Origin: Bacillota bacterium
GTDB taxonomy: Bacteria > Sysuimicrobiota > Sysuimicrobiia > Sysuimicrobiales > Segetimicrobiaceae
Direction of reading: 5' to 3'
Length of the DNA stretch: 43,707 nucleotides
NCBI GenBank assembly: GCA_021324975.1
Contig: JAJPIA010000032.1
Span: forward strand, 1 to 43,707
The notes below the pieces were generated by a model. It was not told the origin of the DNA and ran no database searches. It saw only the letters and a list, made by a program, of their open reading frames with translations. This document shows positions 17,664-24,306 of the stretch, one piece after another. The stretch's first letter is position 1; every line of letters starts with the position of its first letter. Position numbers and translations under genes: made by a program.

Positions 17664-19538
17664 ATGACGGTTAACCAAATGAAGCTGCTGATCGGCGGCG
17701 TGCAGCTTCGTGATGGTGTGTCCACGGTCGCCGACCTCGTTGGCCGAATCCTCACGCGTGCAGGATTGCACGTGCTCAGCGTCGAGCGAAGCTTCGCATC
17801 GACGATCTACGGCGCCCACCAATTCGACCCGCTCGTTGTCTCCGCAGCGCCGCTCCTGTCCTGGGGCGATCGTGCGGTCGATGTGCTCGTCGGTCTCGAG
17901 TACGACAGCAACCCCGACGCGCCGCAGCAACCCAACCGCGACACGATTCGGCAGCACGGTGGCGATCTCGTCGAGGGCGGCGTGCTTCTCTACGACAGCT
18001 CCGGCGGCCCCGTGAACACCGAGGCGCTCCAGGCCCGCGGCGGGCAGGTCTTCGCGATCCCCGCCCGTGACATCGCGCTCCGGGAGCTCAAGAAGGAAGT
18101 CGTCAAGAACCTCATCATGACGGGCGCGCTGTTCCGTCTGCTCGAGTTCGATCAGGACGAGCGCTGGCTGCGCCAGCTCTTGGAGGAGCGCTTCGGGCGC
18201 AAGGGTGCGGCCATCGTGGATCTCAACCTCGAGGCGGCGCGCCGCGGTCGCACCCTCGTCGAGCGGATCCTCGAGGATCGGCGCCGGCCCTCGGTCGGCT
18301 ACCGGATCGAGGCGGTCCGCAGCGCGTCGCCCGCGGTGTACGTCAGCGGCAACGAGGCATTGTCGATCGGCGCGGTCGAGGCGGGGGTCCGCTTCTACGC
18401 CGGCTATCCGATCACGCCGGCGTCCGGCATCCTCGAGTACATGGAGAGGCATCTGCCCGGGTACGGCGGGCGGGTGCTGCAGGGGGCCAACGAGCGCGAG
18501 TCGATCCGCGCCGCGCTCGGCGCGAGCGTCACCGGCGTGCTGAGCATGGTGGGGACGAGCGGTCCGGGACTATCGCTCAAGGTGGAGGAGATCGGCGTCT
18601 CCGGGACCACCGAGACGCCGCTTGTGATTGTCGACGCGATGCGCGCGGGACCGTCGACGGGCATGCCGACGAAGACGGAGCAGGGGGACCTCACGCTCGT
18701 CACGGGCGGCGGGCACGGGGAGATCCCGCGCATCGTGCTGGCGCCGTCGACGATCGACGAGTGTTATACGCTGATGCGGGACGCGGTGCGGCTGTCGGAC
18801 AAGTACCAGTGCCCGGTGTTCTTTCTGACCGACCTCAACCTCAGCGAGGGGCGCATGACGGTGGCGGAGTCGGTCTTCCGGTCCGGCGGCGCATCGATCG
18901 CGCGCCACGTCGCCACGGAAGAGGATGTGCGCGGGGCGCGGTACCTGCGGTACCGTCTGACGGACAGCGGGATCTCGCCGCGCCTGATCCCGGGGCAGCG
19001 GGGCGGGGTCTCCAAGATCAGCAGCACCGAGCACGACGAGTTCGGGTTCGTGACGACGGACCCCGCGATGCGCGTTGCCCAGATGGACAAGCGGATGCGC
19101 AAGCTCCACACGTACCTGCGGGAGGACGCCAAGGCGCCCCAGGTGTACGGCCACCTGGGGCGCGGACCGACGTTGGTCGGGTGGGGCGGGACCAAATTGG
19201 CCCTGTTGGACGCGCGCGAGCGGCTGCGTCGCGAAGGGACCGAGGCGGCCGTCGTCCACTTCACGCACCTCTGGCCGTTCCCGACGCACCTGGCCAAGCC
19301 GCTGTTGGACACCGGCCGGCCGGTCGTCGTGTGCGAGCACAACTACTCGGGACAGTTTGCCGATCTCGTCCAGGCGCACTGCCTGGTGCCGACCCGGCGC
19401 GTGCTCAAATACAACGGCCGGACGTTGTATCCGTCCGAGGTCGTGCGCGCGGTCCAGGAGGTCACCCACAACGGGGCGGTGGCGGTCCGGCTCGGCGGCA
19501 AGGATCCGGTCATGGTCGAGGTGAGCATCGATGCCTGA
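17664..19538 (+). CDS. korA: 2-oxoacid:ferredoxin oxidoreductase, fused gamma-alpha subunit
   Basis: A 624-residue protein joining the gamma domain (about 1-190, LIGGVQLRDGVSTVADLVGR) to the alpha subunit (pyrimidine-binding domain from ~225). GYPITPASGILEYMERHLPG near 246, GTSGPGLSLKVEEIG near 296, and SDKYQCPVFFLTDLNLSEGR near 378 are typical. HLWPFPTHLAKPLL near 535 and VVCEHNYSGQFADLVQ belong to the C-terminal domain. With KorB it oxidatively decarboxylates a 2-oxoacid (2-oxoglutarate or a branched or pyruvate type) to an acyl-CoA, reducing ferredoxin, or runs in reverse. ATG has AAGGA-type spacing. Its end overlaps korB by eight bases (ATGCCTGA). The exact 2-oxoacid cannot be read from sequence. 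Confidence 0.92.
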   Translation: MTVNQMKLLIGGVQLRDGVSTVADLVGRILTRAGLHVLSVERSFASTIYGAHQFDPLVVSAAPLLSWGDRAVDVLVGLEYDSNPDAPQQPNRDTIRQHGGDLVEGGVLLYDSSGGPVNTEALQARGGQVFAIPARDIALRELKKEVVKNLIMTGALFRLLEFDQDERWLRQLLEERFGRKGAAIVDLNLEAARRGRTLVERILEDRRRPSVGYRIEAVRSASPAVYVSGNEALSIGAVEAGVRFYAGYPITPASGILEYMERHLPGYGGRVLQGANERESIRAALGASVTGVLSMVGTSGPGLSLKVEEIGVSGTTETPLVIVDAMRAGPSTGMPTKTEQGDLTLVTGGGHGEIPRIVLAPSTIDECYTLMRDAVRLSDKYQCPVFFLTDLNLSEGRMTVAESVFRSGGASIARHVATEEDVRGARYLRYRLTDSGISPRLIPGQRGGVSKISSTEHDEFGFVTTDPAMRVAQMDKRMRKLHTYLREDAKAPQVYGHLGRGPTLVGWGGTKLALLDARERLRREGTEAAVVHFTHLWPFPTHLAKPLLDTGRPVVVCEHNYSGQFADLVQAHCLVPTRRVLKYNGRTLYPSEVVRAVQEVTHNGAVAVRLGGKDPVMVEVSIDA

Positions 19539-20403
19539 GACGGCCCAGACGACGAGAGCGATCTGGGACCAAAATGCCGCGCCGCGGCACCGCATCCAGT
19601 GGTGCCCCGGGTGCGGCGATTACGCGGTGCTGAACGCGGTCAAGGCGGCGGTGACGTCGCTCGAGCTCACGCCGTCGGAGTTACTCCTGGTCGCGGGGAT
19701 CGGCTGCTCGGGCCAGATCCGTAACTACCTGAACGGCAACTCGTTCTACGGCACCCACGGCGGCGCGCTCGCCTACGCGCTCGGTGCGAAAATGGCCAAC
19801 CCGGAGTTGACCGTGCTGGTCATGGCCGGGGACGGCGACACGCTCGCGATCGGCATCGAAAACTTCGTGCACGCCTGTCGCCGCGATCCGGATATCACGC
19901 TGGTGCTGATGAACAACGGCGTGTACGGGCTCACCAAGGGACAGGACTCGCCGTCCGCGGGCCTCGGCCAGCCGGATTGGAAACCGTCCGAGGAGCACCC
20001 CCCGTTCATCGATCCGGTGGAGGTTGCACTGACGTGCGGCGCGACGTTTATCGGGCAGGGATTTTCGGGCGACCCCAAGCACGCCGCGCAGTTGATCGTG
20101 GAGGGCGTGCGCCATCGGGGATTCGCCGTCATCAACGACTTTTCGCCGTGCGTGACCTACAACAAGGTGAACACCTACGATTGGTTCCGCGCGCACGTGG
20201 AGCCCGTGCCGGCAAGCCATGACCCGTCGAGCAAGGCGGCGGCGTGGGAGTTGGTGCGCGACTTCCGGGACAGGGGCAAGCTGCCCACGGGCATCGTGTA
20301 CCGCGCAGCGCGCGAGAAGGGTGGCGCGGCGAAGCGCCTGCCCATGTGGCCCGACGAGCTGGCGCGGGCAGACGTCGATCCGTTGGTCAAGCGACTGCGC
20401 TGA
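19531..20403 (+). CDS. korB: 2-oxoacid:ferredoxin oxidoreductase, beta subunit
   Basis: 290 residues of the TPP- and [4Fe-4S]-binding beta subunit. The cluster ligands are seen as WCPGCGDYAVL (two Cys), GIGCSGQIRNYL and DFSPCVTYNKVN. The TPP/Mg motif is AGDGDTLAIGIENFVHAC near 108-125, ending in VLMNNGVYGLTKGQDSP. It partners KorA in electron transfer to ferredoxin. The start overlaps korA, so translation is coupled. Neighbours do not include separate ferredoxin or gamma/delta genes; the ferredoxin gene 12 kb away is a plausible acceptor, by inference. Confidence 0.93.
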   Translation: MPETAQTTRAIWDQNAAPRHRIQWCPGCGDYAVLNAVKAAVTSLELTPSELLLVAGIGCSGQIRNYLNGNSFYGTHGGALAYALGAKMANPELTVLVMAGDGDTLAIGIENFVHACRRDPDITLVLMNNGVYGLTKGQDSPSAGLGQPDWKPSEEHPPFIDPVEVALTCGATFIGQGFSGDPKHAAQLIVEGVRHRGFAVINDFSPCVTYNKVNTYDWFRAHVEPVPASHDPSSKAAAWELVRDFRDRGKLPTGIVYRAAREKGGAAKRLPMWPDELARADVDPLVKRLR

Positions 20404-20435: not shown

Positions 20436-20461
20436 CGATGACCGCCGCGAGGCGGTCATCG
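20436..20461. terminator. 11-bp hairpin with GCGA tetraloop between convergent genes
   Basis: CGATGACCGCC (20436-20446) and GGCGGTCATCG (20451-20461) pair perfectly around GCGA, a GNRA-type tetraloop. It lies just after korB and covers the stop codon of the opposite HD-GYP-MFS gene (20456-20458), so it probably acts as a bidirectional terminator. There is no long T-run on either side. Confidence 0.6.
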
Positions 20462-23074
20462 CGCGTTTCGCGCGGGCCGCACGTGGCGGGGTTCGGGGGG
20501 TGGCGCCGGCGCGCCGCTCCGCGCTTCGCGCGCCGGTGGCGGCACCGTCGCGGCCTGGAACGTGTCCCGCCGCAGGACCGGGAGGTCCCGTCCCGCGGCG
20601 ACCCACACGATCGCGACGCCCGCGATGGAGACCATCCCGAGCAGCACCAGCGCGGCCTGCGGGCCGGCCACGTCCGCGAGCCGGCCGAACACCAGCATGC
20701 CGAGCAGGGTCGTGCCGGCGATAAACACCTGGCGGCTCGCCATGAGCCGGCCGACAATCCATGAGGGGGCGTTGGCAAGGGAGATTGAGGCGTTCGCGAT
20801 GTTGGTGGCGATGTTGCCGACGCCGAAGAGGAACGCCCCCGCGATGAGCACCGGGTACGACGTTGTCAGGCCGAACAGACCGACGCCCACGCCGGTCAGG
20901 AGAAACACGACGATGACGAAGGGCACGCTCACCCACCGCCGGCCGGTCGCCGCGAGCGTCAGCGCGGAGACGAGCTTGCCGACGCCGATGACGCTGTTGA
21001 TCACGCCGTAGGCGACCACCGGCAGCCCGGCGGCGCGAATGATCATCGGTGCGCGGAGCGCCGGGAATGCCAGCGTGAGGTACCCGGGGACGATGAGGAG
21101 GGCCAGCACGAGGTGGAGCGGCGTGCGGCGAATGTAAGTGAGCCCTTCGCTGATCTCCGTCACCAGATGCTTCGGGGCCCCGGTGCCGAGGCCGGCCCGC
21201 CACACCAGCGGCATGAGGCCGACGCAGACGGCGCTCACCACAAAGCTCAGCGCGTCGAGATAGAACACCATGTGGTAGCCGAGCGTGAGTACGATCGCGC
21301 CGCCGAGCACGCCGCCGATGATCTCAGCGATCCGCTCGGTTGTCTGCAGCATCGCCGTGCCCGTCGGCAGGATCTCCTCAGGGACGACGACCGGGATGAG
21401 CCCATACACCGCCGACCGGAAAAACACCGTCCCGATGTTCAAGACGACGAGCACGAGGAACCCCGCCGGGAGCGAGCGCAGGAGCACAAATGGCAGCGCC
21501 GCGACCAGCGCCGCACGCCCGAGGTCGGCCGCGATCATGAGCCCTCGGCGATCCACGCGATCGGCGAGCGCACCGGCCAGGAAGCCGAGGAGCCCCTGGC
21601 CGACCGTGGCGGTGATGAGCGCGCCGGCGAGCACCGTGGCCGACTTGGTGAGCTGATACACCCAGAGCGTCAGCGCGATGAAGAAGATCTCGTCACCGAG
21701 GAAGCTGACCAGTTGGCCGCCCCACAAGAGGGCGAAGGAGGGGTGCCGGAAGAGGAGCACCCATGCCGGGAGGGCGGCGGAACCCGGGCGTCCGGCGCGG
21801 CGCTCCGGGATCCCGCCGGCCGGCTGGCGGATGACGCCGGCGCGGGTGAGCACGGTTTGCAGCGCGGCGATCACCCGCGGATCGAACTGCGTTCCGGCGT
21901 TGCGGGCAAGCTCGTCGATCGCATCCCGCGGCGATCGCGCCGCCCGGTACGGTCGGTCGGTAGTCATGGCGTTGTACGCGTCGACCACGAGATTGATGCG
22001 CGAGCTGAGTGGGATCTGATCCCCTGCCAGCCTTGATGGATACCCGGTGCCGTTGAGATTTTCGTGGCTTGCCCCCACGAGCGGCGCGATCTCGGCCAGC
22101 CCGCTGATGGACTCCACGATGCGCACGCCTGCCTCGACGTGCGACTGCATGACGCGCCACTCGTCGCCCGTCAGCTTGCCCGGTTTCAGCAGGATCTCCG
22201 ACGGGATCACGGTTTTGCCGACGTCGTGCAGCAGGCCCGTCAGATAGACGCGATGCACCTCGGGCTCGTCGAGGCCCAGGACCCTCGCGATGCGCCGCGA
22301 CAACTCCGCCACGGCGGCCGAGTGGTCGGCCGTGTACGGGTCCCGCGCGTCCACCGCGGCGGCAAGGACGGATACGGCCGCCAGCGCCCGGCGCTGCTCC
22401 TGCCCCCGCAGGATCCTCGGCAGGTAGAGTTGCAGCGTCAGCGCGGCGGCGAGCGGAGGCACCAGGAGGCGCGTCGTCAAGGCGGGGTTGTTGTCTGCCG
22501 CCCAAACCGCAACAAGCGCCGCCAAGGTAAAGATAGCCATGTGGAACGTCGTCGAGGTTGCCCGGAAGCGGACCGCGCGTGCCCAGGTAAGACCCTCCTC
22601 TAGGTGCAGGTGCGCGGAGGACACAATCAAGTGGACGACAGTGTACGCGAGCCCGGCAAGGAGCACGTCGCTGGGGCTGCCCCAGTCCGGCATGGCGTAG
22701 ACGACCAGCGCCGCGGCGCTGAGCGACAGCAGCTGATCCCCTCCGCCGACCAGTACATCCTGCCACGACCGTCGGACGAGGCCAAACATTGTGCCGGCGG
22801 CGGCGCCGAGCAGGGTAGGCGCCCAACCGAACAGCACGAGCCCCGCTACCGTGATGACCGGGCTCAGCGGCAACTCTCCGGACGGGTCGAGATAGACGGG
22901 ATACTGGTCGAGGAGCGCGGTGGTCAGCGCGATCACGAGCAGGGCGGGGATGTCGGCGATGGTGACGGCGCGCAGCCCCGTCAGGAGCAGGACAGCAGCG
23001 CACGCGGCAATCGACCACGTGAGTGTGCTCAGGGAAGCCCCTCGTGGCGACGCCGGGAGGTCGATCTTGCTCAA
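20456..23074 (-). CDS. Membrane HD-GYP domain fused to MFS transporter
   Basis: One uninterrupted 872-codon frame. Residues ~20-215 form an N-terminal multi-helix membrane sensor region. Residues ~235-410 are an HD-GYP phosphodiesterase domain, with TADHSAAVAELSRRIARVLG near 248, LLHDVGKTVIPSEILLKPG near 281 (HD dyad at 283-284), and HENLNGTGYPSRLAGDQIP near 337. Residues ~440-840 are a 12-TM-type MFS transporter (LFRHPSFALLWGGQLVSFLG; DRVDRRGLMIAADLGRAAL). HD-GYP domains usually hydrolyse c-di-GMP; the MFS part resembles EntS-like exporters. The TTG start at 23074 overlaps the upstream HD gene stop (TTGA). No ATG or GTG occurs in frame near it. An internal GTG at 21760 (residue 439) could start the transporter separately but lacks a good ribosome site. 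Confidence 0.75.
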   Translation of the reverse strand: MSKIDLPASPRGASLSTLTWSIAACAAVLLLTGLRAVTIADIPALLVIALTTALLDQYPVYLDPSGELPLSPVITVAGLVLFGWAPTLLGAAAGTMFGLVRRSWQDVLVGGGDQLLSLSAAALVVYAMPDWGSPSDVLLAGLAYTVVHLIVSSAHLHLEEGLTWARAVRFRATSTTFHMAIFTLAALVAVWAADNNPALTTRLLVPPLAAALTLQLYLPRILRGQEQRRALAAVSVLAAAVDARDPYTADHSAAVAELSRRIARVLGLDEPEVHRVYLTGLLHDVGKTVIPSEILLKPGKLTGDEWRVMQSHVEAGVRIVESISGLAEIAPLVGASHENLNGTGYPSRLAGDQIPLSSRINLVVDAYNAMTTDRPYRAARSPRDAIDELARNAGTQFDPRVIAALQTVLTRAGVIRQPAGGIPERRAGRPGSAALPAWVLLFRHPSFALLWGGQLVSFLGDEIFFIALTLWVYQLTKSATVLAGALITATVGQGLLGFLAGALADRVDRRGLMIAADLGRAALVAALPFVLLRSLPAGFLVLVVLNIGTVFFRSAVYGLIPVVVPEEILPTGTAMLQTTERIAEIIGGVLGGAIVLTLGYHMVFYLDALSFVVSAVCVGLMPLVWRAGLGTGAPKHLVTEISEGLTYIRRTPLHLVLALLIVPGYLTLAFPALRAPMIIRAAGLPVVAYGVINSVIGVGKLVSALTLAATGRRWVSVPFVIVVFLLTGVGVGLFGLTTSYPVLIAGAFLFGVGNIATNIANASISLANAPSWIVGRLMASRQVFIAGTTLLGMLVFGRLADVAGPQAALVLLGMVSIAGVAIVWVAAGRDLPVLRRDTFQAATVPPPAREARSGAPAPPPEPRHVRPARNAR

Positions 23075-24306
23075 GAGGCGCTCACCGCGCCGGCCTGCCG
23101 GTCGGCGAGCACCGCGATCAGCGCTTCGACAACCCGAGGATCGAGCGCGCTCCCTGCCATCGCGCGAAAGCGCTGTGTGGCCTTCGCGCGGGCGCGTGGG
23201 CCGGTGCCGGCCTGATGCCGCGCCTCTTCGTAGGCTTCGGCGGCGGCCAGGATACGCGCCGCAAGGGGGATCCGCCGTCCCCTCCGGCCATCGGGCGCGC
23301 CCGTGCCGTCCCAGTGCTCGTGGTGCGCCCTCACGATCCGCGCGACGAGCGGATCCGGAAATCTCGCGAGAATCTCGCTCCCCGCGCTCGCGTGATGCGC
23401 CGGGGCCTCGGGTCCCGTGGACGGGCCGGCCAGCGTGCCAACATCGTGCAGACGCGCGGCGAGGCGCATGCTGCGAATCGTGGCCTCCGGCACGCGGAGG
23501 CGCCGTCCCACCGCAGTAGCGAGATCTCCGACGCGCTCTCCGTGTTCCCGGGCGCGTGGATCCACGCCTTCGAGCACCCTCACGACGGCCTCGACGATCT
23601 CGCCAACCGCCTGCTGCGACCGATGATATGAGGCAAGCTCTTGCCGCGGGATCGGAAGCGCGATCGCCGAGACGGCCGTGAGACCCAAGGCAGCCCACGC
23701 GTTTCCGACGCGGGCGGCAATGCCCGCGAGCAAGATCGCCATTGGCGCTGCCAGCAGCTGGATGTCCCATTGATCGATGACGTTCTGACGCCACGTGGCG
23801 GAAAACGGGTGACCGAAGCGCAGGTGCTTGTAGACCGCGAAGATCCCTTCGTTCACGATACGGTTGATGCCCACGATGACGACGGCCGCAACGGCGAGCT
23901 GCAGGAGCCCGGGCTCGATCCTCGCGGCCGCCGCATGTCCCGCGACCGCGGCTGCGGCCGTGGCAAGGCCCCAGCCGGCACCATTGTTGCCGGCACGCCA
24001 GAGTTCGCTCTTGGAGAAGAGCAGCAGTCCCAAGCACGATCCGATCCCGACGCCCAACAACACGTCCTGGGGCAGCCAGATCAAGGCCGCCACGATCTTG
24101 ACGTTGTTGACGGGGAACGTGCTGCCGCCGGAGGGGTTAGGGATGGGCGGGACGAGGCCCGCGGCCATGAACACAAGCACCAGCCCGCCGACGATCACCG
24201 CGTGGCTGTGCGGCATCGCCACGACTGCCGCCGTTGCGTAAAGACCCGTGAGCGCGAGGCTGAATCCTTGAATCGGACGCGAAAGTCCGCGGAAAGATTC
24301 CCCCAT
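23071..24306 (-). CDS. Membrane protein with degenerate HD-GYP-like domain
   Basis: 411 residues. The N-terminal ~200 form a multi-helix membrane region (TGLYATAAVVAMPHSHAVIV, VKIVAALIWLPQDVLLGVGI), similar in layout to the region at the start of the next gene. A C-terminal HD domain (~245-405) has REHGERVGDLATAVGRRL, ARLHDVGTLAGPSTGPEAP, HHASAGSEILARFPDP and HHEHWDGTGAPDGRRGRRIP. Metal-binding His and Asp positions are kept, but HDxGK is HDVGT and the GYP motif reads GAP, so c-di-GMP hydrolysis may be lost or altered. It is translationally coupled (TTGA) to the HD-GYP-MFS gene. No good ribosome site precedes ATG 24306, so the start is uncertain. Confidence 0.75.
   Translation of the reverse strand: MGESFRGLSRPIQGFSLALTGLYATAAVVAMPHSHAVIVGGLVLVFMAAGLVPPIPNPSGGSTFPVNNVKIVAALIWLPQDVLLGVGIGSCLGLLLFSKSELWRAGNNGAGWGLATAAAAVAGHAAAARIEPGLLQLAVAAVVIVGINRIVNEGIFAVYKHLRFGHPFSATWRQNVIDQWDIQLLAAPMAILLAGIAARVGNAWAALGLTAVSAIALPIPRQELASYHRSQQAVGEIVEAVVRVLEGVDPRAREHGERVGDLATAVGRRLRVPEATIRSMRLAARLHDVGTLAGPSTGPEAPAHHASAGSEILARFPDPLVARIVRAHHEHWDGTGAPDGRRGRRIPLAARILAAAEAYEEARHQAGTGPRARAKATQRFRAMAGSALDPRVVEALIAVLADRQAGAVSAS

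Follow-up and report, generated by a model that had tools for sequence, protein, structure and literature searches.

The locus described here raises two questions: whether a single protein chain really joins an HD-GYP domain to an MFS exporter and, if it does, what the signalling domain does to the transporter attached to it. On the minus strand of the window (the whole stretch of 43,707 nucleotides that was analysed), an open reading frame runs from a TTG at 23074 to a stop codon at 20456-20458 and encodes 872 amino acids with no internal stop. An earlier, sequence-only reading had described this frame as a membrane sensor, an HD-GYP domain and a full-size MFS transporter in one, and this description held up, with Pfam matches above the curated cut-offs. 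The features are collected in Table 1. Two putative 2-oxoacid:ferredoxin oxidoreductase subunit genes, recognized by eye (17664-20400), adjoin the fusion gene in convergent orientation, and the pair stays beside it in the other genomes of the family that were read.

Table 1. Features of the fusion locus (positions in the window)
Feature	Position	Strand	Remarks
Fusion gene, 872 aa: sensor, HD-GYP and MFS	20456..23074	-	TTG start; orthologs in 7 other genomes
N-terminal membrane domain, residues 1-227, MASE9 / ECF S-component-like, long helix at end	22394..23074	-	
HD-GYP domain, residues 236-401	21872..22369	-	Pfam HD_5, 131 bits
Ser336 codon, PmGH H276 position (first His of HHE)	22067..22069	-	active-site alignment
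Asn368 codon, PmGH D308 position	21971..21973	-	active-site alignment
HD-GYP/MFS linker, residues 411-437, variable in length and sequence	21764..21844	-	
MFS exporter domain, residues 438-830, DHA3 / MFS_3 type, 12 helices	20585..21763	-	
HD-A, 411 aa, MASE9-type HD protein, degenerate, upstream of fusion	23071..24306	-	

A trivial explanation for such a protein would be an artefact, be it a missed stop codon, a misassembly or the production of two proteins from the one frame through internal starts. The frame is indeed open further upstream of the TTG, so that the start is a choice, and the GTG at 21760 (residue V439), which the sequence-only reading had named as a possible source of a separate transporter, could initiate. 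However, a search for the same domain order elsewhere recovered the full-length fusion in 7 other genomes of the family. It is thus carried by 8 of 12 genomes, spanning all four genera, with 44-87% identity to the window copy across the whole chain. The read-through in seven other assemblies refutes an assembly error or missed stop. No in-frame start codon of the linker is shared by all orthologs, and three have none there, indicating that separate translation of the MFS part is not a conserved feature and making a two-protein product from GTG 21760 unlikely. We therefore consider an artefact highly improbable. Stops were flagged inside two other copies of the fusion; in G010 the TAG sits at the end of the frame and not between domains, and in G002 HD-GYP and MFS share one open frame.

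The proposed TTG start is supported by its 4-nucleotide overlap (TTGA) with HD-A, and TTGA, ATGA or GTGA was found at the equivalent place in all 8 orthologs. This NTGA overlap, common to the eight fusions, is consistent with translational coupling to HD-A. Between close pairs, dN/dS was 0.05-0.20 for the HD-GYP part and 0.10-0.14 for the MFS part, vs. 0.37-1.1 for the linker, where identity falls to 20-52%. By this measure, both domains are under purifying selection and the linker is nearly free. The four genomes of the family that lack the fusion are G007, G008, G009 and G011. Since G007 and G011 are more than 90% complete, loss of the fusion or a gap is possible in these cases, and their lack of the gene counts against the explanation that we prefer below.

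We searched 43 genomes of the phylum for unfused versions, using the stand-alone MFS and HD-A proteins of G019 as queries. A cluster in the order MFS, HD-A, HD-GYP, all on one strand, was complete in 11 genomes of families f2, f3, f4 and f6 (G013, G014, G015, G019, G020, G022, G023, G024, G028, G031 and G041). It is rearranged in G012, with the MFS gene about 5 kb away on the opposite strand, and partial in G021 and G025, where it is cut by contig ends. A BTAD-AAA-TPR regulator some 1200 residues long lies directly behind the unfused HD-GYP gene in the majority of f2 and f4 genomes; it was checked with Pfam in G019 and G015 and called elsewhere by size, position and a similar N-terminus (loci L046 1889-5458 and L045 4033-7887, with equivalents in L126, L127, L128, L130, L134, L135 and L138).

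In a quick tree of 51 MFS domains, built without bootstrap, the 8 fused and 15 cluster MFS domains came out as a single group (SH-aLRT 98); 15 further MFS of the fusion family, and 13 from outside, lay apart from it. The fused and cluster HD-GYP domains likewise grouped together (support 93), with two f4 paralogs inside. As fused and free MFS make up a single clade, the window's family has joined two long-standing functional partners. The order also changed, since the clusters have the MFS gene upstream whereas the fusion has the MFS part at its C-terminus. We infer that the split state came before the fusion from its distribution over four families, the counts themselves being unrooted. The occurrence of the parts as separate neighbour genes in sister families is strong independent evidence that MFS and HD-GYP belong together; the linked clusters and the tree reject the MFS gene as a chance neighbour.

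Is the HD-GYP domain an active enzyme? Family membership is clear: the domain matches PF13487 (131 bits vs. a cut-off of 27.2) and has both motifs that had been noticed earlier, the HD dyad (H283-D284) and GTGYP (342-346, with G344-Y345-P346); the first His of the HHE motif, however, is S336. Its best solved relatives are V-cGAP3 (5z7c) and PmGH (4mcw). In PmGH numbering, all 8 fused domains keep D183, H189, H221, D222, K225, H250, H277, GYP, D305 and R314, while at the position of E185 five have Tyr, as in the Y/F subgroup, and three have Leu or Arg. The position of H276 is Ser in 8/8 fusions, leaving the metal-ligand set incomplete, and that of D308 is Asn or His in 8/8. In PmGH, the H276A and D308A mutations abolish activity or nearly so (PMC4159591). 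Twelve unfused cluster HD-GYPs were tabulated: H276 is kept in 10 and D308 in 10, and none has lost both. The exceptions have Ser at 276 (G014 and G023) or Asn at 308 (G024 and G031), suggesting that either change alone may be tolerated. As two unfused members also have Ser at 276, loss of H276 was rejected as a strict mark of the fusion.

The combination of both changes in every fusion favours a receptor over an efficient hydrolase, and a cyclic-dinucleotide receptor that gates the exporter is the more likely of the two on these alignments. The sequence-only reading had assumed active c-di-GMP hydrolysis and an exporter coupled to its turnover. The first assumption is not borne out, since none of the 8 fusions has the equivalents of H276 and D308; of the second, the HD-GYP/MFS partnership stands, but not the hydrolysis, for which two residues essential in PmGH are changed. 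The retention of the other Y/F-subgroup metal ligands, together with K225 and R314, counts against a model in which the domain is only a receptor. V-cGAP3, the best solved relative, is a 3'3'-cGAMP phosphodiesterase, so that a cyclic dinucleotide other than c-di-GMP could be the ligand. Many other HD-GYPs of the window's family have His-Gln at PmGH H276-H277 and Ser or Gly at D308 (e.g. G000:C69:28591-29211 and G000:C89:38969-39589, with relatives L002, L003 and L014-L035); two of those in G000 adjoin a GGDEF match.

The N-terminal 227 residues were modelled as a helical membrane domain at pLDDT 92.8 (38 sequences; the model spans window positions 22388-23068). The top 7 PDB matches of this model were all ECF S components (target TM 0.54-0.71, though at E values of 0.09-0.4). 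The N-terminus of the window copy matched no Pfam family, MASE9 (PF20972) included, and 11 of 38 related N-termini matched MASE9 (best E 1e-11) and 5 ECF-ribofla_trS. The first module thus looks to be a membrane sensor, as had been proposed, of a MASE9 or S-component-like type by its relatives and fold. The fold likeness and the matches of the relatives suggest that it may sense a small molecule.

The transporter part (residues ~442-825) matched MFS_1 (PF07690, 67 bits) and MFS_3 (PF05977, 60 bits), both over their curated cut-offs. MFS motif A is present, with G501, D505, R506, D508, R509 and R510 invariant among the fusions, as is the Asp of the first helix. Twelve helices were seen in a low-confidence model of the full-length fusion (mean pLDDT only 61, for which reason domain packing was left uninterpreted), and Foldseek matched the MFS part to MdfA, NorA and others with E values of about 1e-8 to 1e-6. 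Every NCBIfam MFS model that might have named a substrate scored below its cut-off (TIGR00900, 170 vs. 320).

HD-A is a second membrane HD protein, laid out like the fusion but without the MFS part. The K225 and R314 positions are absent and Glu is found at D305 in every HD-A protein, and in the window copy GYP is in addition replaced by GAP. Taken with the losses in the fused HD-GYP, this suggests that each of the two HD proteins of the fusion family is impaired in its own way, as far as can be predicted from their active-site residues.

GGDEF matches were found in all 12 genomes of the family (5-27 per genome, 14 here), and PilZ gave no match in any of the 12, a profile absence that leaves room for other receptors. 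It is therefore probable that the family makes a second messenger and that it needs receptors other than PilZ. We propose, at odds of slightly less than even (about 0.47), that the fusion is a single-chain exporter under second-messenger control. Either the membrane domain or its partner HD-A would sense a small molecule or the state of the membrane; the HD-GYP domain would bind c-di-GMP or a related cyclic dinucleotide, with slow cleavage or none; and binding would alter a dimer, in which HD-A is probably the partner of the fusion, so that the attached exporter opens or closes. The retention of the fusion in eight related species and the occurrence of the three parts as separate neighbour genes in cousins make control of the exporter by the HD-GYP domain probable. 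The narrower version, in which a catalytically disabled HD-GYP receptor gates the exporter and has another degenerate HD protein as its partner, is put forward only tentatively.

An alternative is that the HD-GYP domain is an active enzyme that hydrolyses c-di-GMP or cGAMP, with the exporter governed by this turnover or by the level of nucleotide around it. At 14 of the 16 positions tabulated, the fused domain holds a residue found in other HD-GYP domains, it is under strong purifying selection, its nearest relative of solved structure carries an enzyme annotation, and Ser at 276 also occurs in two otherwise intact unfused cluster members. Against this, the two positions changed in 8/8 fusions are essential in PmGH, where alanine mutants are inactive (PMC4159591), and most unfused cluster members retain H276 and D308. 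We therefore consider this explanation unlikely, if a serious contender, and control through nucleotide binding likelier than coupling to turnover.

Control could also run in the opposite direction, the MFS part being the sensor whose substrate binding or transport controls the HD-GYP domain, by analogy with the symporter-kinase CbrA. Transporter-sensor fusions do exist (CbrA, CrbS, RpuS), and a BTAD transcription regulator, a possible signalling output, often joins the partnership in the sister families. Yet the fusion already possesses a membrane sensor, its would-be output enzyme looks impaired, and motif A and the first-helix Asp of the MFS are invariant, as in a working transporter; such a scheme thus appears rather doubtful. 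Lastly, the fusion might simply co-localise or co-express two membrane proteins with no direct control between them, as would be compatible with a linker that varies in length and sequence and has no conserved coupling segment. This we hold to be improbable, given that linkage of the parts extends to four further families and that selection acts on both domains within the fused clade.

The fusion has a narrow range. A search of 291 genomes, of which some 248 lie outside the phylum, found no further fusion at E <= 1e-52, and a scan of a contig collection with the MFS alignment yielded two fused loci and otherwise unfused MFS; fusions to an unrelated MFS would escape these searches. Both fused loci come from MAGs of the window's family that were deposited as Bacillota from Centralia. 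Outside the phylum, seven MASE9-HD relatives lacked this MFS as well as a second HD gene in the stretches examined, some of which were short. In agreement with the earlier statement that no established HD-GYP/MFS fusion is known, none was found in the open-access papers searched, although an earlier survey of HD-GYP architectures may list one. If our proposal is correct, a secondary transporter directly under c-di-GMP or a relative of it would link signalling to export without transcription; the narrower version would represent a class of second-messenger effector in a lineage where PilZ receptors were undetected. The fusion would also point to possible cyclic-dinucleotide receptors in a GGDEF-rich lineage. 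The fused and unfused versions within one phylum provide a natural experiment, the HD-GYP active site being altered in the former and mostly intact in the latter.

Each part of the fusion has known counterparts. In its HD_5 match, HD dyad, GYP motif and the K225 and R314 positions it resembles PmGH and V-cGAP3, but differs from them in the Ser replacing the first His of HHE, the Asn or His at D308, the MASE9-like N-terminus and the C-terminal MFS. The N-terminus may resemble ECF S components in fold, and several relatives match MASE9 or ECF-ribofla_trS, whereas the window copy has no Pfam match in this part. With DHA3-type exporters (MFS_3, the TIGR00900 H+ antiporter, EntS, MefA), the transporter part shares its MFS_3 match, motif A and 12 helices; unlike them, its N-terminus is joined to an HD-GYP domain, and its TIGR00900 score falls below the cut-off. 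The SLC5-STAC histidine kinases CbrA, CrbS and RpuS also combine transporter and signalling domain in one chain, but both are of different families (no Pfam match to an SLC5 or histidine kinase domain was found in the fusion protein), and the fusion's transporter is C-terminal. The closest precedent for a non-hydrolysing receptor is DvhD of Desulfovibrio vulgaris, like the fusion a membrane-bound HD-GYP protein with lost metal ligands, which alters its dimer when c-di-GMP binds but does not cleave the nucleotide (PMC13090378). DvhD has its own substitutions (HD to SQ, HH to Met and Asn) and PAS and dCache domains, and acts in the Dvh (Lap-like) adhesin system with no transporter, whereas the fusion carries its MFS exporter in the same chain.
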